From: Paraburkholderia sp.
GTDB taxonomy: Bacteria; Pseudomonadota; Gammaproteobacteria; Burkholderiales; Burkholderiaceae
Length of the DNA stretch: 64,000 nt
Assembly: GCF_004298475.1 (NCBI RefSeq)
Contig: NZ_SCRP01000034.1
Location: forward strand, 304,587-368,586
Direction: 5' to 3'
In this document: positions 53,399 to 63,881 of the stretch, in pieces
How the letters are laid out: every line of letters starts with the position of its first letter
Numbering within the stretch: the first letter of the stretch is position 1
Made by a program: the position numbers and the translations under genes
Notes under the pieces: model-generated
Database searches by the model: none
Told to the model about the DNA's origin: nothing
What the model saw: the letters and a program-made list of their open reading frames with translations, nothing else

Positions 53399-53483
53399 GC
53401 CTCGGTGGTGAAATTGGTAGACGCGCCGGACTCAAAATCCGGTTCCGAAAGGAGTGCCGGTTCGATTCCGGCCCGAGGCACCA
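53399..53483 (+). tRNA. tRNA-Leu(CAA)
   Basis: Acceptor arms GCCTCGG (53399-53405) and CCGAGGC (53473-53479) pair, with A discriminator and encoded CCA. The anticodon loop between CCGGA and TCCGG reads CT-CAA-AA. The long variable arm TTCCGAAAGGAGT is that of a class II tRNA. Its 3' end is the integration site of the element that follows. Confidence 0.97.
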
Positions 53484-53491
53484 AAGAATAT
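53465..53491. repeat. attL: tRNA-Leu 3' end core
   Basis: The 27-base segment from the T loop of tRNA-Leu through CACCAAAGAATAT is repeated, with one base missing and one changed, at 63809-63834. It marks the left junction of the integrated element. Confidence 0.8.
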
Positions 53492-53586
53492 CCCAACGTT
53501 CACAACGTTCTCCCAAAGAACCCCGCCAGATCTAGTCTCGCGGGTTTTTTTGTTGCAAACTACTCCCAACTTCCACTAGTACAAAC

Positions 53587-53690: not shown

Positions 53691-54911
53691 ATGGCTCTTA
53701 CCGAACTAGCAGTCCGCAATGCCAAGCCCGCAGCCAAGCAGCAGAAGCTGTTTGATGCTGGCGGCCTGTTCCTGCTGATCACCCCGGCCGGCGGTAAGCG
53801 CTGGGTGCTCAAGTATCGGATCAACGGGAAAGAGAAGAGCCTCGCGCTCGGCATGTATCCCGACGTCTCAATCGCAGAGGCACGCAAACGGCGCGACGCC
53901 GCGCGCGAGAAGCTGGCGGGCGGCGTCGACCCGGGCGATGCGAAGAAGGCGGACAAACGGGCCGCGAAGCTGGCTGCCGCCAACTCGTTCGAAGCCGTCG
54001 CCCTCGCCTGGATGGACGAGCGACGTCCCTATGTCGAACCGGCGCAGTACGACAAGACGCTGGCGCGCTTCAAGAACGACGCCTTCCCGTGGCTCGGCAA
54101 GCGCCCTATCTCCGAGATCGAGGCACCGGAAATCCTCGACGTGATGAAGCGCGTCGACAGCCGCGGCGCGCGCTTCACGGCACACCGGCTCCGCAGCGAG
54201 ATCAGCCGCGTGTTCCGCTACGGGATCAAGGAAGGCTTCTGCAAGAACGATCCGGCGCGCGACCTGCTCGGCGCGATTCCGCCTGCCCAGACGATGCACT
54301 TCGCTTCGATCACGGAGCCCGCCAAGGTTGGCGAGATGCTTCGCGCGTTCGACGGCTTCACCGGCACGTTCCCGGTGCAGTGCGCCCTCAAGCTTGCGCC
54401 GATGTTGTTCGTGCGCCCCGGCGAGCTACGCAAGGCGGAATGGGAGCAATTCGACCTCGATAAAGGCGAGTGGCGCTACCTCGTCACCAAGACGACGACG
54501 GCCCACCTCGTGCCGCTCGCCACGCAAGCCGTCGCAATCCTGCGCGATCTGCACGCGCTCACCGGCTCAGATCGCTACGTGTTTCCCGGCGCACGCGACC
54601 GTAAGCGGCCCATGAGTGAGGCAACCATTAATGCGGCCTTGCGCCGTCTTGGCTACGACACTCGCACCGAGATTACCGGCCACGGCTTCCGGGCCATGGC
54701 GCGCACGATCCTGCATGAAGAGCTCGAGCAGAAGCCCGAGGTCATCGAGCACCAGCTCGCGCACGCGGTCCCCGACAATCTCGGTGGCGCATACAACCGC
54801 ACGCGATTCATCAAGGAGCGCCGCGCGATGATGCAGAAGTGGGCTAACTACCTTGATCGAATCAAGGCGGGCGCTGCGGTCATTCAGCTCAACGCGGGGA
54901 CTCGCTTCTAA
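53691..54911 (+). CDS. int: Tyrosine-recombinase integrase (P4/DUF4102 type)
   Basis: The 406-residue integrase has an N-terminal DUF4102 arm-binding domain (MALTELAVRNAKPAAKQQKLFDAGGLFL and KRWVLKYRINGKEKSLALGMYPDVSIAEARKRRD), a core-binding SAM-like domain (about 100-200) and a catalytic domain. The catalytic residues are Arg242 (FVRPGELR), His331 and Arg334 (HGFRAMART), a histidine at 354 or 358 (IEHQLAHA) and the nucleophile Tyr368 (GGAYNRT). Such integrases insert at tRNA 3' ends, which fits the adjacent tRNA-Leu. GGAG precedes the ATG. Confidence 0.96.
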   Translation: MALTELAVRNAKPAAKQQKLFDAGGLFLLITPAGGKRWVLKYRINGKEKSLALGMYPDVSIAEARKRRDAAREKLAGGVDPGDAKKADKRAAKLAAANSFEAVALAWMDERRPYVEPAQYDKTLARFKNDAFPWLGKRPISEIEAPEILDVMKRVDSRGARFTAHRLRSEISRVFRYGIKEGFCKNDPARDLLGAIPPAQTMHFASITEPAKVGEMLRAFDGFTGTFPVQCALKLAPMLFVRPGELRKAEWEQFDLDKGEWRYLVTKTTTAHLVPLATQAVAILRDLHALTGSDRYVFPGARDRKRPMSEATINAALRRLGYDTRTEITGHGFRAMARTILHEELEQKPEVIEHQLAHAVPDNLGGAYNRTRFIKERRAMMQKWANYLDRIKAGAAVIQLNAGTRF

Positions 54912-55012
54912 CGCTTTCGGAAGGCATCCTTGATATATGTCGTCGATTTTTCCTTTTGCGCAATCAATAGCGATCCTTTTAGTTCGCCGTAGTTGTTCGG
55001 ATCGACCGGCAT

Positions 55013-55858
55013 TTACCACCCCTGAGAGGAAATCAGCGAACCCAATGGATCGCCTGTGGAGTTGGCAAAATTCAATGCGCTCTGGCCTCCAACAAGGCCG
55101 GATGCCCCAGAGTTACCGCCAAACGAGTTCAGGAACGCCTGGTTGTTCAGCAGGCTCGTGATTCCTCCAGAAAGCGCATTCGCAGAACCAACGGTGCCAG
55201 CCGCCTGTGCGTTACCGGCGCCGATCATGTTGTTGCCGATCGACTGTCCTGTCTGGATGGCCGCATTGCCAACCCCCGCTGCCGCGTTCTCGCCCAAACT
55301 CGCCGTGTTATAGAGGCGACTGAAGATGTTGTTGAGGTTCGAATTCCACGTGTTGAAATTCGTGTTGTACGAGGTCAATGCGTTATTGAGCTCGTTCTGG
55401 TACGAACCCAGTGCAGTCTGCTGACCATAGTCGGATAGAGCCTTGAGCGTCGCCCCGGAATTCACGCCACCGAGCGCCGAGGCCTGGCTTGTGATCGCGT
55501 TCGTCCCCTGCTTGAGCAGGAAGTTGTACTCGGGGTCTTGCGACGGGTCGTAGTTGAACGAGAACTTGGGGTAATTGAGTTGCTGATTGTTGTCCTGGTT
55601 CGCAAACCACGTCAGACCGTTCAGAGCATTGTTGCCGGTCTGCATGTACGGCTGAAGATTCCCCTGCGTCGTGTTGAACATCTGCAACTGTGCTGCAGTG
55701 GCGTTTCCCGCTGCCGCAGCCTGCTCATTGGCGGCGTTCGACGCTGCATTGCTTCCAATGAGAGCGCTGCCGAGTGACCCTACGGCTCCAATCGTTCCTC
55801 CCAGTGCCCCCGCAGAGAATGTGCCGATTCCAATTGCTGCTCCGATTGCGGAACTCAT
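55013..55858 (-). CDS. Glycine-zipper, Asn/Gln-rich phage virion/DNA-ejection-type protein
   Basis: The 281-residue protein has an N-terminal glycine-rich hydrophobic stretch (AIGAAIGIGTFSAGALGGTIG, residues 5-45) and then a long Ala/Asn/Gln/Gly-rich helical region without Cys (NNALTSYNTNFNTWNSNLNNIF). This pattern is found in internal virion or pilot proteins ejected with podophage DNA. The assignment is by composition and position at the end of a phage gene series, not by a clear motif. GC content is lower than in flanking genes. Its start overlaps the stop of the cupin-SET gene (ATGA). Confidence 0.6.
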   Translation of the reverse strand: MSSAIGAAIGIGTFSAGALGGTIGAVGSLGSALIGSNAASNAANEQAAAAGNATAAQLQMFNTTQGNLQPYMQTGNNALNGLTWFANQDNNQQLNYPKFSFNYDPSQDPEYNFLLKQGTNAITSQASALGGVNSGATLKALSDYGQQTALGSYQNELNNALTSYNTNFNTWNSNLNNIFSRLYNTASLGENAAAGVGNAAIQTGQSIGNNMIGAGNAQAAGTVGSANALSGGITSLLNNQAFLNSFGGNSGASGLVGGQSALNFANSTGDPLGSLISSQGW

Positions 55859-56736
55859 ACTTCACCCCCGATAGGCTTGAACCCTGCCCCGTTGACCCGC
55901 ATGGCCTGCCTGTAGTCGACCACAACCTCATCGCCTGACCGAATAAGGCGATTGGCAACCAGCGCTAGATTTCCGTTGAACAGATCCACAAACCTGGCAT
56001 TCGGCTTGGCCGAGTGATTCAGGTATCTTCCCGCCGGAGTGCGAAACCCCTTGACCCGGGCCGGAGCAATAAATTCGTCCGGGTTGAAGTCTCGCTTGGC
56101 GAACATCCCCCGCCCGGCGATCAGCGAATCGCGCAGTTCGAGCGTCTCGATTGGAACGTTAATCTGGTCGTACGGATTCTCGACCAGCCTTGTCACCACA
56201 TCCTGCGCCAGACCATACTCGACGAGAAAGCGCGCGTAGTCGGCACGATCCTCCGCAGCGCGGTTATTCCGCATCTGCACGTTGTCGCGTCCGCCGATCA
56301 GTTCAGCGTTCGTCGACTCGGTAATCTCGATCATGATTTCGTCGAGATCGGTTTTTGTGGTGCAGTGATAGGTCGTCCAGACCGTTTCCTCCAGTGCGTA
56401 CCCGACGCGCTTCTTCCCTGCCTTGGAGACCAGCGTGCAGGGTGCCTGAATCTCCCTCATGAACTCGTCGTCTAGCACCAGCAGGCGCCCCTTCGAAACG
56501 GTGCACAGGTGCTCGTGGCGATGCACCGCCCCCGTGACCGCCACGCCCGCTGGAATCGTCATCTCGCGCGCGTACATGCCGGGGGCGAAGTAGTGGCGCA
56601 CCGGGCAGTCGACTTGCGGCATCTTCTGGATTTCCCGTTCCAGAGCCATGATCTTTTCACGGGCCACCGGCTGATCGAATCTGTCTATGGCTTTCGCGAA
56701 TTGCAGCAAGTGCATTTCGCTCGTTACGTCGGACAT
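55855..56736 (-). CDS. Phage-encoded cupin-SET fusion (predicted lysine methyltransferase)
   Basis: The 293-residue protein appears to have three parts. Residues 15-42 are helical and charged. Residues 45-140 look like a cupin barrel: HYFAPGMYAREMTIPAGVAVTGAVHRHEHLCTVSKGRLLVLDD with His72/His74, then TTYHCTT (His124). Residues 195-278 read as a SET domain: ELRDSLIAGRGMFAKRDFNPDEFI, the pseudo-knot motif RYLNHSAKPNA (Asn240-His-Ser) and LIRSGDEVVVDY with the catalytic-type Tyr275. SET enzymes methylate lysines using S-adenosylmethionine. The target is unknown; a virion or host protein is possible. GAGGAGG precedes the ATG. Confidence 0.75.
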   Translation of the reverse strand: MSDVTSEMHLLQFAKAIDRFDQPVAREKIMALEREIQKMPQVDCPVRHYFAPGMYAREMTIPAGVAVTGAVHRHEHLCTVSKGRLLVLDDEFMREIQAPCTLVSKAGKKRVGYALEETVWTTYHCTTKTDLDEIMIEITESTNAELIGGRDNVQMRNNRAAEDRADYARFLVEYGLAQDVVTRLVENPYDQINVPIETLELRDSLIAGRGMFAKRDFNPDEFIAPARVKGFRTPAGRYLNHSAKPNARFVDLFNGNLALVANRLIRSGDEVVVDYRQAMRVNGAGFKPIGGEV

Positions 56737-56776: not shown

Positions 56777-57043
56777 TCACAGGACAAGAAAATCGTTCTC
56801 GTCGATCACAACAGGTCGCAGTGTTCGGGCGCCGCGGGGTAGCTGGCGATTGATTTCCGCAGCGAGCCGTGCCTCCAGTTCGCCCATCGTTTCGCCGGCA
56901 TCGAGTTCGTACATCTCACCGTTCCATTCGACACCCACAGGATGTCCATCACCGAAGCGCCGGATCACGATGACCAGCGGATTAATCGAACTCGAGAGTT
57001 CTCTTTCGAGCTGCGTCACTCGCGACTTGAGACTGCTTCCCAT
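56777..57043 (-). CDS. Small phage protein, coiled-coil N-terminus
   Basis: The 88-residue protein begins MGSSLKSRVTQLERELSSSINPLVIVIRRFGDGHPVGVEWNG and continues with a Glu-rich helix (AGETMGELEARLAAEINRQL). GAGGAG lies seven bases upstream of the ATG at 57043. The start resembles that of the next small protein upstream (57076-57279), so the two may be paralogues. Function unknown. Confidence 0.65.
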   Translation of the reverse strand: MGSSLKSRVTQLERELSSSINPLVIVIRRFGDGHPVGVEWNGEMYELDAGETMGELEARLAAEINRQLPRGARTLRPVVIDENDFLVL

Positions 57044-57075
57044 TGCTCTGCTCCTCGCCACTGCGCTGAATTGGT

Positions 57076-57279
57076 TTAGCGGTACAGACGTTCAACATCT
57101 TCCAGGGTCATGCCTTCAGGTACTGCCTCGAAGTGGATGTGCCCGGGCCGACCGACGAGGCGGGGACGCTCCTCGGGATCGCCCATCGCCACGATCACCA
57201 CCAGTCGCGGGGCATCCGCAGGAGGTTGCCGCTGCTCCAGTTGCTCGATGCGTGTTCTGAGAGTGCTGCTACTTGGCAT
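57076..57279 (-). CDS. Small phage protein, similar in layout to its neighbour
   Basis: The 67-residue protein reads MPSSSTLRTRIEQLEQRQPPADAPRLVVIVAMGDPEERPRLVG and ends EGMTLEDVERLYR. The pattern of a coiled-coil start, a V-rich strand and a short acidic helix parallels the 56777-57043 protein. Its start overlaps the end of the DUF5681 gene by 11 bases. Function unknown. Confidence 0.6.
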   Translation of the reverse strand: MPSSSTLRTRIEQLEQRQPPADAPRLVVIVAMGDPEERPRLVGRPGHIHFEAVPEGMTLEDVERLYR

Positions 57280-57670
57280 TGCCGTTGCCCTCCAAGGCCT
57301 CGATGCGTTTCACAAGGTCGTCGACCTCGATAACCCTCAACTGCGCGGTGACAACCTGCATCACCGCGGCTGCTTCGTCGGGCGTGATCTTTCCCGCCGC
57401 CATTGCCTGCAAAACCGTTTTGCCCATCTGCGCCGGTGTGCCGTTCAAACCCTTCAGGCTGATCGGCTGATCCTTCGCCTTGATCGCCGGGATGCACCGA
57501 TCGATGCAGATGCGCAGCGCCGTCGTGTCGCCCGCCAGCGCCAGTTCGACAGCCTTCTTCACGAGGCCCTCGGCGTGCGGCTGCAGCAGTTCGCGCAGCG
57601 CCGTGCGCTTGTCGGGTGTGCCTCGCTTGCGGCCGGCCGGATTGCCCGATACCCCCTTTTTGAACCCCAT
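57269..57670 (-). CDS. DUF5681 protein, terminase-small-subunit-like
   Basis: The 133-residue protein starts MGFKKGVSGNPAGRKRGTPDKRTALRELL, the hallmark GNPAG-R basic motif of DUF5681 proteins, often encoded just before the large terminase in phages. A helical region (GLVKKAVELALAGDTTALRICIDRCIPAIK) and a coiled-coil C-terminus follow. No large terminase gene is present after it. If it is a small terminase it would choose DNA for packaging by a helper's motor (inference). An upstream start at 57703 is possible. Confidence 0.7.
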   Translation of the reverse strand: MGFKKGVSGNPAGRKRGTPDKRTALRELLQPHAEGLVKKAVELALAGDTTALRICIDRCIPAIKAKDQPISLKGLNGTPAQMGKTVLQAMAAGKITPDEAAAVMQVVTAQLRVIEVDDLVKRIEALEGNGNAK

Positions 57671-57715
57671 GTCGTTGTTTTTCCCTTGATCTGTGCAGGT
57701 CAACGTGGCCGCCAG

Positions 57716-58681
57716 TTACCGTTGCCATACTTGGCTCCACGATCCAGAGTCCAGATCCAGATATCGCCCTGGCGCATTCGGATCGTCCCGAAACTGCAAA
57801 CTGGCCGGATCGAACCAAAGCCGCACGTTTCCCTCCCAGGTGTAGTGGCGTTGCTTCGCGCATATCAGCACCGTGTCGGCCTGCCCTTCGATCGACGCGC
57901 GCTTCTCGTCGGATAGATCTGTCTTGCGCAGATCAGCCTCCTTGCGCTTGTTGCGATGGACGATCAGCACGTTGTCGACGAGGTCGGTAATCTCACCCGC
58001 GCCTTTCAGGTCGAACTTGTCGGGCACGTCGGATTCCTTCTCGCGCTTGCGCGCGTGATGCACGAGGTGGATGTGCAGATCGGTGTCCCGGGCCAGTGCG
58101 CACAGCTCGTCGACGAACGACTTCTGGCCCGCGTAGTCGTCGGGCGCGATGCCGCACTTGAGCAGGCTATCGATCACCATGTGCGAGACGCCGAGCTCCT
58201 TGCGGCAGTATCGCGAGACCGCGATCATGCGGTTTCGCGGCACAGTCCCGACGTGGTTGTAGATCCACAGCCGGTCATTGGTCCAGCGGCCGAAGCCCTG
58301 CAAATAGCCGCCAGCCGGCTTCTCGTTGCACGCAGCCTGGCGCGCGAGGCGCTCCATCGTTGCGCGCGGGCGCATTTCCATCGATGCAATGCAGGTGCGC
58401 TCGCCCGCGGTCATGGCGTGCAGCATGGCGTAGCCGAGCACGGCGGATTTACCGTGGCCGTTCACGCCACCCCAAAGCGACACCTCACCCGGGCGAAACA
58501 TGAGGTCGCCACCGACACTGGGCCACGGCGAAGCGACGCCGATCTGTTGCTGCTCGGCGCCGTACAGGTGCTCGACGAGCTCATCAATGAACTCGTGTGC
58601 AGGGCGCACGTCGGCGCGGCCATCGTCCTCGGCGCATGCGTACGCCTCCCAGTCGATGTTGTCGGGAATCGTGCGGGCCAT
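57716..58681 (-). CDS. DnaB-like/RecA-fold phage helicase
   Basis: The 321-residue protein has a Walker A GGVNGHGKS (71-79), a Walker B-like MVIDSLLKCG, LHIHLVHHARK and TDLVDNVLIVHRNKR, as in the RecA-fold ATPase domain of DnaB/T7 gp4 helicases. It lacks the N-terminal DnaB or primase domain, so it should be a helicase-only phage protein or a recombination ATPase. It overlaps the upstream gene by one base (TGATG), and it follows the DUF1376-like replication gene two genes away. Confidence 0.85.
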   Translation of the reverse strand: MARTIPDNIDWEAYACAEDDGRADVRPAHEFIDELVEHLYGAEQQQIGVASPWPSVGGDLMFRPGEVSLWGGVNGHGKSAVLGYAMLHAMTAGERTCIASMEMRPRATMERLARQAACNEKPAGGYLQGFGRWTNDRLWIYNHVGTVPRNRMIAVSRYCRKELGVSHMVIDSLLKCGIAPDDYAGQKSFVDELCALARDTDLHIHLVHHARKREKESDVPDKFDLKGAGEITDLVDNVLIVHRNKRKEADLRKTDLSDEKRASIEGQADTVLICAKQRHYTWEGNVRLWFDPASLQFRDDPNAPGRYLDLDSGSWSQVWQR

Positions 58682-59199
58682 CAGGCCACCTCCGTAACGG
58701 TTGCGTTTTGCTCGACGAGCAGCTCGATCGCCAGCTCACATGCGCGGTCGTATGGGTTCGGCAGCATGTCGCCAAGAGCGGCCAGCAATCGGCGCGCGAG
58801 CGTCCGTGATGCGGCCCAGCGTGTCGTCTCGACGGGCATCGGGAACCAGTCGAACAAGGCGAAGTCCTGGCCCGGTACCGTGCGCGTCTCGCCGCAGTGG
58901 ATACGCGGACCTTCACGGAACGTCAGCACGAGCGTGTTGGGCACGATCGCGGCAATGTCGGCGAGCGTCCGCAGCAGCGAGTCCCACGGCACGCTGGCGG
59001 ACGCAAACACCTCGATATCGAGCGCGCGAACCGGGTTCCAGTCGTACCGTTCTCCGGCATGCGCCGACAGCGTGACGTTGGCATAGGGCAACGGGCCCGC
59101 CAGCGTGACGAGCACCGGAAGCGCGGACACGTTGCCGCTCTTGCGCATGGCAATAAGTTCGGCAGAGTTGCGGGGATAGCGAAGATCCATGGCGCTCAC
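58681..59199 (-). CDS. Phage protein of unknown function between replication genes
   Basis: The 172-residue protein starts at GTG (59199; overlap GTGA with the upstream stop) or ATG (59190). It has no recognised domain. Segments such as LPVLVTLAGPLPYANVTLSAHAG and ASRTLARRLLAALGDMLPNPYDRACELAIELLVEQNATV suggest an alpha/beta fold with a helical end. Its place between the DUF1376-like gene and the helicase suggests a replication accessory role, by position only. Confidence 0.6.
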   Translation of the reverse strand: MSAMDLRYPRNSAELIAMRKSGNVSALPVLVTLAGPLPYANVTLSAHAGERYDWNPVRALDIEVFASASVPWDSLLRTLADIAAIVPNTLVLTFREGPRIHCGETRTVPGQDFALFDWFPMPVETTRWAASRTLARRLLAALGDMLPNPYDRACELAIELLVEQNATVTEVA

Positions 59200-59999
59200 C
59201 CGAATACGCTGTCCGAACTGCCGTGCCCGTTGATGCGGCCGCTACCGGATGTCAGCCAGTCAGCCTTGAAGCCACCCCAACCGCGGACCACGCAGGTTCG
59301 CAGCGCATCGGTCATCGAGATCCCTGCCTTGGCCGCCTCGGCGCTGGTGTCGTCAAAAGCGGTAACGGTAGGTGCGAGCCGTTTCGCCTTGCGCACCGCA
59401 AGCCAGTCCTGTGCGAGATCTGAGGGCACGCCCAAAGATTCGAGATGCGCTTGCGCATCGAAGCGCGGAGCGCGTTGTTTTTGTCTTTTTGAAGACGAAG
59501 ATGAAAATGAAGAGCCGTCACCTAAGGGGGGCTTTGGTGAAGCTTTGGTGCTATCACCAAAGGGGGGCTTTGGTGCATCCTTCGATGCACCGTCACCTTC
59601 GCTCTGAAAGCGCGACGACTCGCCACGAACCGAGCGGACATACTCATCCTTGACCATCCGCGACGAGTACCAGATTGGCCCATCCTGCCCGGCAACCAGC
59701 GTCACTGGCTCACCGTCACGACGCCCGGATCGCGGGACGTAGATGCACGCCGCGCACGTCTGCCCCTTATCCGCGCCCTTCAGGACACCCTTGTTGACGA
59801 TGCTCTTGAGCGTGGCGAGCGATGCGCCGATTGCCTGTGCGATTTCCTTGAGCGGCCAGCGCAGCACACCGTACTCTTCGGAGTCATGTAGGAGGCACAT
59901 CACGTCGATCCACACGCCCTTCTCGGCATGGGTGCAGCGCCGCAGGTTGCTGTTCGCCTGCCAGTCGCCCGGGTAAAACTGGAAAGATGGGCGCGTCAT
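59196..59999 (-). CDS. DUF1376-like phage replication protein
   Basis: The 267-residue protein begins MTRPSFQFYPGDWQANSNLRRCTHAEKGVWIDVMCLLHDSEEYGVL, a DUF1376/YdaU-type winged-helix start found in phage replication initiators. The middle (about 125-180) is disordered and repetitive (KPPFGDSTKASPKPPLGDG, then a poly-Ser run). The C-terminus (SLGVPSDLAQDWLAVRKAKRLAPTVTAF) is a DnaT-like helical module that may contact the helicase. The repetitive part is encoded by a 22-base direct repeat that could be an origin. Overlaps both neighbours by four bases. Confidence 0.75.
   Translation of the reverse strand: MTRPSFQFYPGDWQANSNLRRCTHAEKGVWIDVMCLLHDSEEYGVLRWPLKEIAQAIGASLATLKSIVNKGVLKGADKGQTCAACIYVPRSGRRDGEPVTLVAGQDGPIWYSSRMVKDEYVRSVRGESSRFQSEGDGASKDAPKPPFGDSTKASPKPPLGDGSSFSSSSSKRQKQRAPRFDAQAHLESLGVPSDLAQDWLAVRKAKRLAPTVTAFDDTSAEAAKAGISMTDALRTCVVRGWGGFKADWLTSGSGRINGHGSSDSVFG
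59518..59575. repeat. 22-base direct repeat with extra CTTTGGTG copy, candidate origin iterons
   Basis: Near-identical copies lie at 59518-59539 and 59554-59575 (TCACC-AAGGGGGG-CTTTGGTG core, two differences). A third CTTTGGTG is at 59543-59550 and an inverted CACCAAAG at 59556-59563. The repeats lie inside the replication gene, as the iterons of phage lambda lie inside gene O. Confidence 0.55.
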
Positions 60000-60268
60000 G
60001 CCAACACCCTCAACGCGGCTTCCATGCGACGGATCTGGGCAGCGCTGCGCGTCCTGATTTCCGCCAGCATGAGATGACTGCAGCGAGCGCGCAGTACACG
60101 CGTCTGAGCCGCGCATACCAGGCGACCGAGTGCGTCAATGCGCAGCTCGCGCGCATGATCGTCGATAGATTGTCCAAACGCGGCTGCAGAAGAGGCGGCC
60201 GTGCGCATCGACCGGCTATGCAACCGAACACCGCCGACGCAGGGCGCGCGAGTCGTGAGGTTCGCCAT
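59996..60268 (-). CDS. Small phage protein, function unknown
   Basis: The 90-residue protein (MANLTTRAPCVGGVRLHSRS...) is Ala/Arg-rich with a predicted long helix (LVCAAQTRVLRARCSHLMLAEIR). AAGGGG precedes the ATG, and the stop overlaps the next start (ATGA), which supports expression as part of the series. No family recognised. Confidence 0.55.
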   Translation of the reverse strand: MANLTTRAPCVGGVRLHSRSMRTAASSAAAFGQSIDDHARELRIDALGRLVCAAQTRVLRARCSHLMLAEIRTRSAAQIRRMEAALRVLA

Positions 60269-60281
60269 CGTCGCGAGCCCC

Positions 60282-60551
60282 TTATACAGCGATCGAGATC
60301 TGCACTTGATAGGCCGCCGGATTCTTCATCCAGCGATGGACTTCCTCGTTGCTGTACACGGTGCAACGCTCGGTCCAGCGCTGCGGCTGTGGCGCGCGGC
60401 CTTCCTTGACCAGCTTGCGCCACGTTTCGCGGCTGACGGGGATGAACTGCCGGAGTTGCTCCCAGCGAGAGAACCCGACAGCGGGAAGCGTTTGAGGAGC
60501 GTTGACGGATACTTCGCCAGTGCGTTGTACGTCAGCTGATTTGCGAGCCAT
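60282..60551 (-). CDS. AlpA-like DNA-binding regulator/excisionase
   Basis: The 89-residue protein has an AlpA/excisionase-type winged helix: GFSRWEQLRQFIPVSRETWRKLVKEGRAPQPQRWTERCTVYSNEEVHRWMKN. AlpA proteins control integrase and excision in P4-like and PICI elements. The start at 60551 was chosen at MARKSADVQR; a longer frame reads back through the upstream repeat region. GCACC-GC-rich spacing gives a modest RBS. It is the first gene after a palindrome-rich intergenic segment. Confidence 0.85.
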   Translation of the reverse strand: MARKSADVQRTGEVSVNAPQTLPAVGFSRWEQLRQFIPVSRETWRKLVKEGRAPQPQRWTERCTVYSNEEVHRWMKNPAAYQVQISIAV

Positions 60552-60617
60552 TGCGGTGCCTCCTGAGGCGTCGATTGCAATGGAGCCAGCGTAAATTAAC
60601 GGATATTGTAAAAATAG

Positions 60618-60656
60618 CCGCAGTTCACTGCGTGAACTTAGCGCGGGGAACTGCGG
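60618..60656. promoter_or_regulatory. Nested palindromes upstream of the AlpA-like gene
   Basis: CCGCAGTTC (60618-60626) and GAACTGCGG (60648-60656) are perfect inverted arms. GTTCAC-TGC-GTGAAC (60623-60637) is nested in the left part. The GTTC/GAAC half-site thus occurs four times in 39 bp. A phage-type operator or RNA hairpin is likely. Confidence 0.65.
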
Positions 60657-60710
60657 TAAATCTCGGAAACCCTTATCAAATAAGGCCAAGAATGGGCGCG
60701 GGGAATTCCT

Positions 60711-61982
60711 CTATGCAGATGTGCGTGGACCGGTAGGCAATCCGTCGGCGCGCAAGATCGTTGCCATGACTTCAGCAGTTCGTTTCGATACACCTTGCGC
60801 TGTCAGCCAGTCTCGAACCTGGTCATTCGTCGGCGCCGTCGTAGGGTCCGTCGGATCGTAGCGTTTCCAGAACGTCTCAGCCGCTTCCCCGAGCTTACGT
60901 AGTAGCTGTGTTTCGTGACTGCCCCAAGGCCAGCGGCCCGCGTCTGTCTCAGAGGCGCTAGCTTGTAATTGGACTCTGCCGTTGTGGCTGCGCACCTCGA
61001 TCTCCTCTTGACCCGCACTGTACTGCATGGCCCGCTCTTGCATCGCCGCGGGCAACGAAAATCCCTTACGCAATGCCCAATGTGCAAATTCATCTATCCG
61101 CACGGGGTACATCATTCGTCCGCTGTCGGGTTTTGGTTCCACGTTCGCCGAGATGTAGGCGTCCCGATTCACCGCGTCCCAAACGTTGTCAAACGCCGCG
61201 GGGAACACACTCAACTGACTCAGACAAAAGATTCCCTTTTGTCCAGGCTGCGGCGGCTCAATATCCGCTGCCAGGCACGCTGCCTCCCATAGAAAGGCCC
61301 CGTCAAGCTTGCTCCATCTGTCCCAGTTCGGCTTCTCGAATTGATAGTCCCATTCCAGCACCAGTGGACGGTCCGGTAAATGCTCAATCGGCGGCGGCGC
61401 CTTGGAGACTTCGGCGCGCTGCTTGACCTTTTGCGCTTGGTCTATCGCCAATCGACACTCCAAGGCATCGAGCGTCGAAACCCCTATGCGCAATTCGTCA
61501 GCACCTGGAAGCCACCGGGGCGGCACATATTCGAGCTCGAATATGTGCTCATGCTCGGGAATGGCATCAGGATCAAAGTTGTCGCTTTGCTCGGGCAGCG
61601 CGGCGCCCTCGACGACGTCCCAAGCAGGCCGGCCTAAATCGTCAGCATCGCCAGGCAGGAAAAGCGTTATGCCTTCATGCGGCTGGTCCTCCAACTTCCA
61701 CGCGCCCCCTTTCGCGAGAGCAAGCAGGTACCTTGATGGCGGTCCCCCGTCGATCGTGAGTTGATAGATACCATCCGGGATAACCTCGTTCACGTCGTCG
61801 CCATGACCATCGATCGATGGACCGTGATATTCCCCGAGCAGGTTATGGCCGGCGAGTTCGCAATAAATGTCGATCGCTGCGTGGCCAGCTGCGCGCAGTA
61901 CATCACTGGTCGATGTTGGCCGACCAAGACGGCACTTGAGTTCCTTGCATGCCGCGTCGAGCGACAAGTAAGTCGCACTCAT
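60711..61982 (-). CDS. Island protein of unknown function with conserved C-terminal module
   Basis: The 423-residue protein starts MSATYLSLDAACKELKCRLG. The N-terminal part (to about 170) is acidic and contains FELEYVPPRWLPG. The middle has WDYQFEKPNWDRWSKLDGAFLWEAACLAADIEPP. The C-terminal 60 residues (LLRKLGEAAETFWKRYDPTD and NDQVRDWLTAQGVSKRTAEVMATILRADGLPTGPR) are a module I recall at the end of many proteobacterial island proteins. Function unknown. AGGGA lies ten bases before the ATG at 61982. A role in element maintenance or defence cannot be judged from sequence. Confidence 0.7.
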   Translation of the reverse strand: MSATYLSLDAACKELKCRLGRPTSTSDVLRAAGHAAIDIYCELAGHNLLGEYHGPSIDGHGDDVNEVIPDGIYQLTIDGGPPSRYLLALAKGGAWKLEDQPHEGITLFLPGDADDLGRPAWDVVEGAALPEQSDNFDPDAIPEHEHIFELEYVPPRWLPGADELRIGVSTLDALECRLAIDQAQKVKQRAEVSKAPPPIEHLPDRPLVLEWDYQFEKPNWDRWSKLDGAFLWEAACLAADIEPPQPGQKGIFCLSQLSVFPAAFDNVWDAVNRDAYISANVEPKPDSGRMMYPVRIDEFAHWALRKGFSLPAAMQERAMQYSAGQEEIEVRSHNGRVQLQASASETDAGRWPWGSHETQLLRKLGEAAETFWKRYDPTDPTTAPTNDQVRDWLTAQGVSKRTAEVMATILRADGLPTGPRTSA

Positions 61983-62116
61983 GTCTCTACGTCCCTGCAC
62001 ATATGCCCTGAGGAGGAGCCGCGCCAACGGGTCAGGGAACCCGGTTTTCGCCCCGTCGAGCTAGGCGCGGTAAAAACGATTATGCCAAAACGTCTTTACT
62101 GGCGGTGGCCATTACC

Positions 62117-63656: not shown

Positions 63657-63881
63657 ACACTCTGACAGTTCTGACGCGGGCGAGGCCGCCTACCTCGTTG
63701 CACGCTGGCAACCACGCAGGGGCCACGATGCGGGGGTTGTTTTGGGGGTTTTCTGAAGACTGAAAATCATCAGCGGCTTATCTGACAAGGCTTAGCCGTC
63801 AACATTTCATTCCGGCCCGAGCACCAGAGAATATTCCGGCAAGTTCCGGCCAGTACGGAAAACCCACAGAAACCCGCGACT
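63657..63881. other. Element end and junction, no gene
   Basis: No gene is seen between the HTH gene and the IS end. The segment contains the attR-like repeat at 63809-63834. Confidence 0.5.
63809..63834. repeat. attR-like copy of the tRNA-Leu 3' end
   Basis: ATTCCGGCCCGAG-CACC-AGAGAATAT matches attL at 53465-53491 except for one missing G (GAGG to GAG) and one A-to-G change. It marks the right junction. Confidence 0.8.

Follow-up and report, generated by a model that had tools for sequence, protein, structure and literature searches.

In known SET enzymes, lysine is the usual substrate. The N-terminus of the Rubisco small subunit is also methylated by a SET enzyme. Monomethylation at that N-terminus is documented in PMC11450134. 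In short-tailed phages, T7 gp13 and P22 gp14 are encoded in the slot immediately upstream of the small ejection protein (T7 gp14 and P22 gp7, respectively), and both are presumably assembly proteins. Among satellites, P4 contains a C4-type RNA. According to PMC8628076, P4-like satellites are characterized by an integrase, replication genes, a small size, and no capsid genes. The locus analyzed here can be compared with each of these systems: a gene encoding a fusion of a cupin and a SET domain occupies the same slot as gp13 and gp14, and is carried by a small integrated element. The family to which this gene belongs is real and common in phage contigs, with no function assigned in the libraries searched.

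The Cupin-SET Gene and Its Two Domains

Within the window, by which the whole analyzed stretch of 64,000 nucleotides is meant, the cupin-SET fusion gene is located at positions 55855..56736 on the minus strand and encodes a protein of 293 amino acids, denoted P0001. The open reading frame of the original prediction is real, plus-strand frame 1 of the same interval being interrupted by stops. It starts with ATG at 56736, preceded by GAGGAGGGG, and its stop shares four nucleotides with the next gene (ATGA, 55858-55855). P0001 matches Pfam SET (2e-9; 38.2 bits with a cut-off of 22.4), phrog_12032 (1e-60), and phrog_34170 (3e-59). All motifs that had been quoted were found, namely HRHEH at residues 72-76, YHC at 123-125, GRGMFA at 208-213, NHS at 240-242, and GDEVVVDY at 268-275. 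The claimed overlap with a virion-type gene also held, and this neighbor could be specified as a DNA-ejection protein of P22 gp7 type (55013..55858, minus strand, 281 amino acids, starting MSS; phrog_598, 1e-28). Structure prediction and fold search covered both domains with high confidence. The cupin β-barrel of the predicted model extends over approximately residues 40-140 (56317..56619, minus strand) and the compact SET domain over approximately residues 195-282 (55891..56154, minus strand). A cupin fold was thereby upheld by the model and the alignments, as was a SET fold in which the SAM and catalytic residues are conserved. Overall, the observation behind the original prediction is confirmed and its interpretation is supported in part.

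Fold comparison demonstrates a SET fold in the predicted model, in which residues 195-275 align with residues 2-105 of vSET (PDB 3kma) over 81 pairs. Profile matches of P0001 to MLL come in split pieces. Together, these two results imply that most of the SET-I stretch is missing. Moreover, threading of the C-terminal pseudoknot is implied by the fold alignments of the model, at the level of alignment rather than of coordinates. In 53 relatives of less than 80% identity, residues G208, G210, R232, G236, R237, N240, E270, and Y275 are invariant and H241 is present in 52. A larger SET alignment has 111 rows; it is redundant, containing the window protein and some contigs twice, and scan patterns behind it partly select on the NH motif (later loci came from cupin patterns instead). 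Here, G210, R237, N240, E270, and Y275 are present in every row, H241 in 110, and G208 in 109. In SET7/9, N296 and H297 contact SAM, as described in PMC1282579, and the N-H pair of the NHS motif can be read as their counterpart. Judged from its residues, the SET domain would be a catalytically active SAM-dependent methyltransferase.

The cupin histidines displayed a different distribution among 53 relatives of less than 80% identity: H48 is present in 52 and H76 in 50, with H72 in 19, H74 in 11, and H124 in 10. A histidine at position 70 occurs in 41 of these relatives and is absent from the window protein. No conserved set of metal-binding histidines was found in the alignment of the 53 relatives. 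A metal site of fixed make-up is unlikely, since the histidines originally quoted are mostly not conserved, and for the same reason the proposal that the cupin could sense a small molecule was not borne out. The barrel is probably a docking domain or a putative chaperone domain.

Relatives and Their Gene Slot

At least 593 relatives were confirmed by a scan of IMG/VR. Among GenBank phages, 58 records match P0001, 8 of them over at least 80% of the protein, and 12 records match the SET part alone, several of which are duplicates. Scans with single proteins returned one locus for P0001 and only itself for the protein of L165, described below. A genome search across the order with query A3 gave 27 places, comprising 3 in the genome of the window, 9 matches to the cupin part, and 15 weak matches to the SET part only. 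The first 117 loci, in which two places of the window's own genome are counted twice, comprise 95 cupin-SET, 20 cupin-only, and 2 SET-only loci. The context survey of homologues that had been suggested as a check revealed a recurrent neighbor. With an HMM trained on those same 117 loci, a gp7-type gene was recognized immediately after the family gene in 91 of them and was not found in 23, and in 3 there is no room for one. By eye, about 19 of the 23 have a similar Gly/Ala-rich start. All three ejection proteins tested against PHROGs (window, L004, and L105) match phrog_598.

The same arrangement can be observed in individual phages. In Rhodoferax phage P26218 and a Manatee Spring podovirus, a gene-10-type tail hub is followed by one small gene, the cupin-SET family gene, and the gp7-type ejection protein. 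In Sphaerotilus phage R1 and Variovorax phage VAC_51 (T7-type), a cupin-only gene comes after the tail-tube B gene and before the gene of a small protein, which in VAC_51 is annotated as an internal virion protein; the large internal virion proteins come next in both phages. PF11090 and PF11039 match the T7 and P22 proteins, with no match to P0001 or to two cupin-only proteins (L022 and L009). Phage zth2-2 appears to be a contextual exception: here, the reading frame ahead of cupin-SET can be read as terminase-like, and the protein encoded after cupin-SET has 110 residues and a Gly/Ala-rich start. A GNAT acetyltransferase gene is situated shortly after cupin-SET in this phage (L020:13096-13584).

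The Carrier Element

The description of the surroundings as a phage-like element could be made more specific: the carrier is small, is bounded by att repeats, contains RNAs of satellite type, and gave no match to terminase, portal, or coat families. Its integration target is tRNA-Leu(caa) (53399..53483, plus strand), the 3' end of which constitutes the attL repeat (53465..53494). This end is repeated as attR at 63809..63837, with one gap and two mismatches (alignment score 43), and the element is therefore 10.37 kb long and wholly in the window. The best score in 500 Markov-simulated sequences was 30, and a control stretch (window 1-53000) gave 19. The attR was found within the window, and elsewhere in the genome two partial matches only, of 75-79%, were obtained. 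The contig ends 163 bases after attR.

A tyrosine integrase is encoded on the plus strand (53691..54911; Pfam Phage_int_M 9.5e-29, Arm-DNA-bind_3 8e-26, and Phage_integrase 5e-16). The features listed next all lie on the minus strand. After the gp7-type gene, the start of the next ejection gene (54908..55012, MPVDP...) stops after 34 codons and is truncated; the gene after gp7 in L105 starts MPIDP. On the other side of cupin-SET are a small protein at 56777..57061 (no family above cut-off; relatives in L132, L290, and L292), another at 57076..57279 (no family; a relative in L132), a DUF5681 protein (57269..57703; Pfam 5.6e-12), for which a small-terminase-like role is our guess from known gene neighborhoods, a DnaB-type helicase (57716..58681; Pfam DnaB_C 2.8e-8), a conserved replication-module protein (58681..59199; matched in 9 of the 398 genomes searched, its own included), an O-like replication initiator (59196..60116; phrog_678 1.8e-13 and phrog_6451 1.5e-13), a weakly matched excisionase/regulator-like protein (60282..60689; phrog_66 0.0011), and a 438-aa protein also found in the L120 element (60711..62027). 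Two RNAs were recognized by Rfam, an int-alpA RNA (RF02996, 62006..62071; 60.3 bits, gathering 35.8) and a C4 antisense RNA (RF01695, 62902..62993; 69.4 bits, gathering 45). None of the 13 element proteins scanned with PHROGs matches a coat, portal, or terminase family. In being integrated between att repeats and in having no coat, portal, or large terminase gene among these 13, it is satellite-like.

It is possible, albeit doubtful, that the carrier is instead a decayed P22-like prophage of which cupin-SET and gp7 are remnants. The next ejection gene breaks off after its 34 codons, which indicates that the window element may be decaying, and the gap and mismatches that separate attR from attL point in the same direction. 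An apparently complete P22-like prophage with the cupin-only form is present in the same genome (C15), and a scan of 40 kb there gave neither RNA. The replication module is followed in L132 and L133 by large proteins of virion/transglycosylase type. L133, which has the replication module of the window, is not free of virion genes, since two of its proteins belong to PHROGs head-and-packaging families (phrog_992, "head protein", and phrog_684, "virion structural protein"), and this also favors a prophage origin. Against it, the replication module recurs in L120 and L132-L134 with no match to the terminase, portal, or coat seeds. The int-alpA RNA is shared by the window, L120, and L132-L134, and the C4 RNA by the window, L120, L133, and L134, whereas neither RNA occurs in the scanned parts of four portal-bearing phages (C15 as L013/L014, L105, L116, and L136), nor was an int-alpA or C4 RNA found in L135. 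A further argument against decay is a second att-bounded element in the same genome (C12:269601-284955, 15.35 kb), bounded by a 14-base repeat of a tRNA-Ser end that occurred in none of 300 simulated sequences. This element contains a C4 RNA, a primase, cupin-SET, gp7, and a transglycosylase-type protein, with no int-alpA match and, in the 8 proteins scanned with PHROGs, no terminase, portal, or coat match.

An int-alpA RNA was detected in 32 of 200 Burkholderiaceae genomes, 30 of them over the cut-off, which indicates that such elements are common in Burkholderiaceae. Judged by the seeds, 20 int-alpA stretches have mostly other or unrecognized cargo, few of their proteins having been scanned. 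The int-alpA elements L290 and L292 contain DUF5681 and a relative of the protein at 56777-57061; a phosphoadenosine phosphosulfate reductase-like protein is found in L292 and an endolysin/tape-measure-like protein in L290. L132, L133, and L134 come from Burkholderiaceae genomes; in L134, the replication module is followed by a protein of 348 residues that has a Gly/Ala-rich start and matches no family. An isrK RNA lies beside the C4 RNA, just over the cut-off, at L133:6849-6927 and L134:12974-13047.

Gain and Loss of the SET Domain

Sequence trees reveal that the SET domain is repeatedly gained or lost. In the cupin tree of 124 rows, which like the SET tree was built after an 85% redundancy filter, 6 changes are needed to account for the SET label, and well-supported branches force at least 4 of them. 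The window clade (window, L025, L026, L028, and L105) is nested in a 34-row group (support 99/99), the rest of which is cupin-only except L165. In the SET tree, the window clade is positioned apart from the main clade, near stand-alone SET domains, with middling support (83/97). L165 (L165:5566-6438) is an independent fusion, having SET before cupin in the same slot, ahead of an ejection protein that begins MAF. In L120, cupin and SET are two overlapping genes, and in L119 and L121 SET is present alone.

Residue 3 of the Ejection Protein

The start of the ejection protein differs according to the presence of SET, being mostly MSG, MSA, or MSS after cupin-SET and mostly MSF, MSW, MAF, or MAW after cupin-only proteins. 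Among 166 non-redundant loci, counted before the recoding described below, residue 3 is G, A, or S in 56 of the 58 cupin-SET loci (V and W in the other two) and F or W in 92 of the 107 cupin-only loci, in which 6 are small and 9 other. It is F in the reversed-order L165. These loci derive from 351 cupin ORFs, 337 of which have a usable cupin domain and an ejection-gene start, reduced to 166 by an 80% redundancy filter. The set excludes loci L124-L139 and L225-L302, and the counts exclude L120 (separate genes) as well as L119 and L121 (SET alone), the ejection-type protein of L119 starting MSL. An earlier set of 120 rows (124 minus 4 with no assignable start) gave 52 small, 1 aromatic, and 1 other with SET, and 4, 59, and 3, respectively, for cupin-only.

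The signal is confined to a single site. Position 3 carries 0.69 bits on the SET label, and positions 2 and 4-30 carry at most 0.08, as calculated from residue classes in 163 rows (166 minus two dropped rows and L165). Because relatedness acts on all positions from 2 to 30, shared ancestry is unlikely to be the sole cause. The difference is present in each of three start-overlap classes, non-overlapping starts included, as determined with the first, rougher starts. The score used for start choice credits F and W as well as G, A, and S, and should therefore favor neither class. The tree of 166 rows was evaluated with 2 rows dropped and, on inspection, with an aromatic code assigned to 4 cupin-only rows (F at residue 2 in 3 of them, a later start in 1). 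Three contrasts on supported branches were obtained, of which a mean of 2.7 point the same way and none the opposite (sign test, p 0.25). The 124-row tree yields 2 contrasts, of which 0.9 agree in direction and 1.1 show no difference. Independent SET events are few, and neither test can reach significance.

Nested switches on branches of moderate support can also be observed: the window clade (MSA/MSS) lies beside L087 (MSF), and L351 (MSAGLS) beside L158 (MAFGIS). Exceptions with intact SET residues and an aromatic residue 3 are L339 (MSW) and L165 (MAF). On the cupin-only side, 15 of 107 are not F or W, including an MSVV group and L155, L216, and L019 with small residues. In T7 gp14 (MCW) and P22 gp7 (MLY), both without SET, residue 3 is aromatic (L140 and L141), which suggests that this trait is old among small ejection proteins. 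In the sequences compared, the third residue of the ejection protein and the presence of SET vary together, and formal support from the trees is weak.

Proposed Role and Alternatives

The joint reading towards which we lean, tentatively and at a little under an even chance, is that of an assembly factor of short-tailed phages whose SET domain acts on the N-terminus of the ejection protein, borne here by a satellite-like carrier. The cupin-SET protein would be the assembly factor in the slot of T7 gene 13 and P22 gene 14, made in direct coupling with the ejection protein encoded next. The cupin barrel would provide the constant part of the slot protein, and the compact SET domain would recognize the ejection-protein N-terminus. 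Given the coupled start, a slot that stays constant, and covariation at a single site, the slot protein probably contacts this N-terminus. The ejection-protein start is a likely target of the SET domain, because the third residue tends to change when SET is present. N-terminal methionine is normally removed before Ser or Ala, and its loss would leave an S-G or S-A start on SET-coupled ejection proteins. A small second residue might then allow the terminal amine to enter the narrow SET channel, for which F or W would be too large. The putative acceptor, most likely, would be the α-amine of the ejection protein, methylated during its synthesis and loading into the head. Against this reading stand the preference of known SET enzymes for lysine, the absence of most of the SET-I stretch, which contributes to substrate binding, and the exceptions at residue 3 given above. 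A satellite-like element could place its own marked ejection protein in the particles of a presumed helper. In its complete form, with methylation of the N-terminal α-amine, residue 3 as a size gate, and Burkholderiaceae satellites carrying the pair to take over injection by a podovirus helper, this scheme is rather unlikely.

A lysine of the ejection protein was rejected as the general acceptor: 2 of 101 SET-coupled ejection proteins (L027 and L029, one lineage) have no lysine. No lysine common to the SET-coupled gp7 proteins was found among the alignment rows listed. In lysine content the groups hardly differ, with medians of 2.26 per 100 residues (91 proteins) and 2.49 (95 proteins). A lysine within residues 2-20 occurs in 6 of 101 SET-coupled proteins, a redundant set, and in 5 of 221 cupin-only ones, which says only that a lysine in this region is an unlikely acceptor.

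Methylation may instead be directed to lysines elsewhere, either in a host protein or in a different virion component (larger ejection proteins, portal, or coat); the switch at residue 3 would then represent only the hand-over of the nascent ejection protein. This is favored by lysine being what SET enzymes usually modify and by the position of the family within the head/ejection module; in the lysine-free lineage, moreover, a lysine substrate must be elsewhere. By itself, however, it leaves unexplained why residue 3, and no other early position, tracks SET, and we regard it as somewhat unlikely. Still less probable is a non-catalytic assembly chaperone in which SET is a binding module for the start of the ejection protein. 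Binding alone would suffice for the covariation at residue 3, the cupin metal ligands are mostly not conserved, and the slot is that of T7 gp13 and P22 gp14, the former described in Pfam as a probable scaffold protein. Nevertheless, the SAM and catalytic residues are kept in 109-111 of the 111 rows, despite an identity of 30-36% between the first seven full-length relatives and the window protein, and a purely binding role is thereby rendered quite unlikely. That the protein is a short tail fiber or adhesin, as the cupin part is named by PHROG 12032, PHROG 24280, and several records, is highly improbable, given a predicted cupin fold and a gene that adjoins the ejection gene and, in P22-like and T7-like phages, comes after the tail-hub or tail-tube genes.

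Comparison with Known Systems

If the reading of an assembly factor that acts on the ejection-protein N-terminus is true, SET enzymes would gain a role in the building of phage particles, probably on a protein N-terminus. Among the matches listed from open-licence PMC, none dealt with SET enzymes of phages within virion modules, and none with satellites that contain ejection proteins. With vSET of chlorella virus PBCV-1 (3kma), KMT2/MLL, and EZH2, P0001 shares the SET fold, the GxG loop, the NH(S) motif, and the Tyr in E..DY. In contrast to these enzymes, which act on histones, its SET domain is shorter, with most of SET-I missing, is fused to a cupin, and is located in a phage ejection module. 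PHROG 34170, itself without assigned function, covers almost the entire fusion. PHROG 12032, "short tail fiber protein", matches the cupin part, a name at odds with both gene position and fold. T7 gp13 (PF11090) and P22 gp14 (PF11039) share the slot, with no sequence relation to cupin or SET seen. Their PDB matches are very weak, to acetyltransferases for gp13 (E 0.39) and one to a glyoxalase for gp14 (E 0.008). The present study offers a candidate and testable function for a slot whose occupants in T7 and P22 are poorly understood.

As regards the carrier, the scans of the window element with Pfam and PHROGs, which are general libraries rather than P4-specific models, gave no match to psu, delta, sid, epsilon, or alpha, and membership of the P4-like group is not claimed. 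The window element resembles P4-like satellites in its integrase, replication genes, small size, absence of capsid genes, and C4-type RNA. Its replication is of DnaB/O type, whereas that of P4-like satellites depends on the P4 alpha primase. Unlike them, it also carries an ejection protein together with cupin-SET, which suggests that some satellites may contribute components of the injection machinery.
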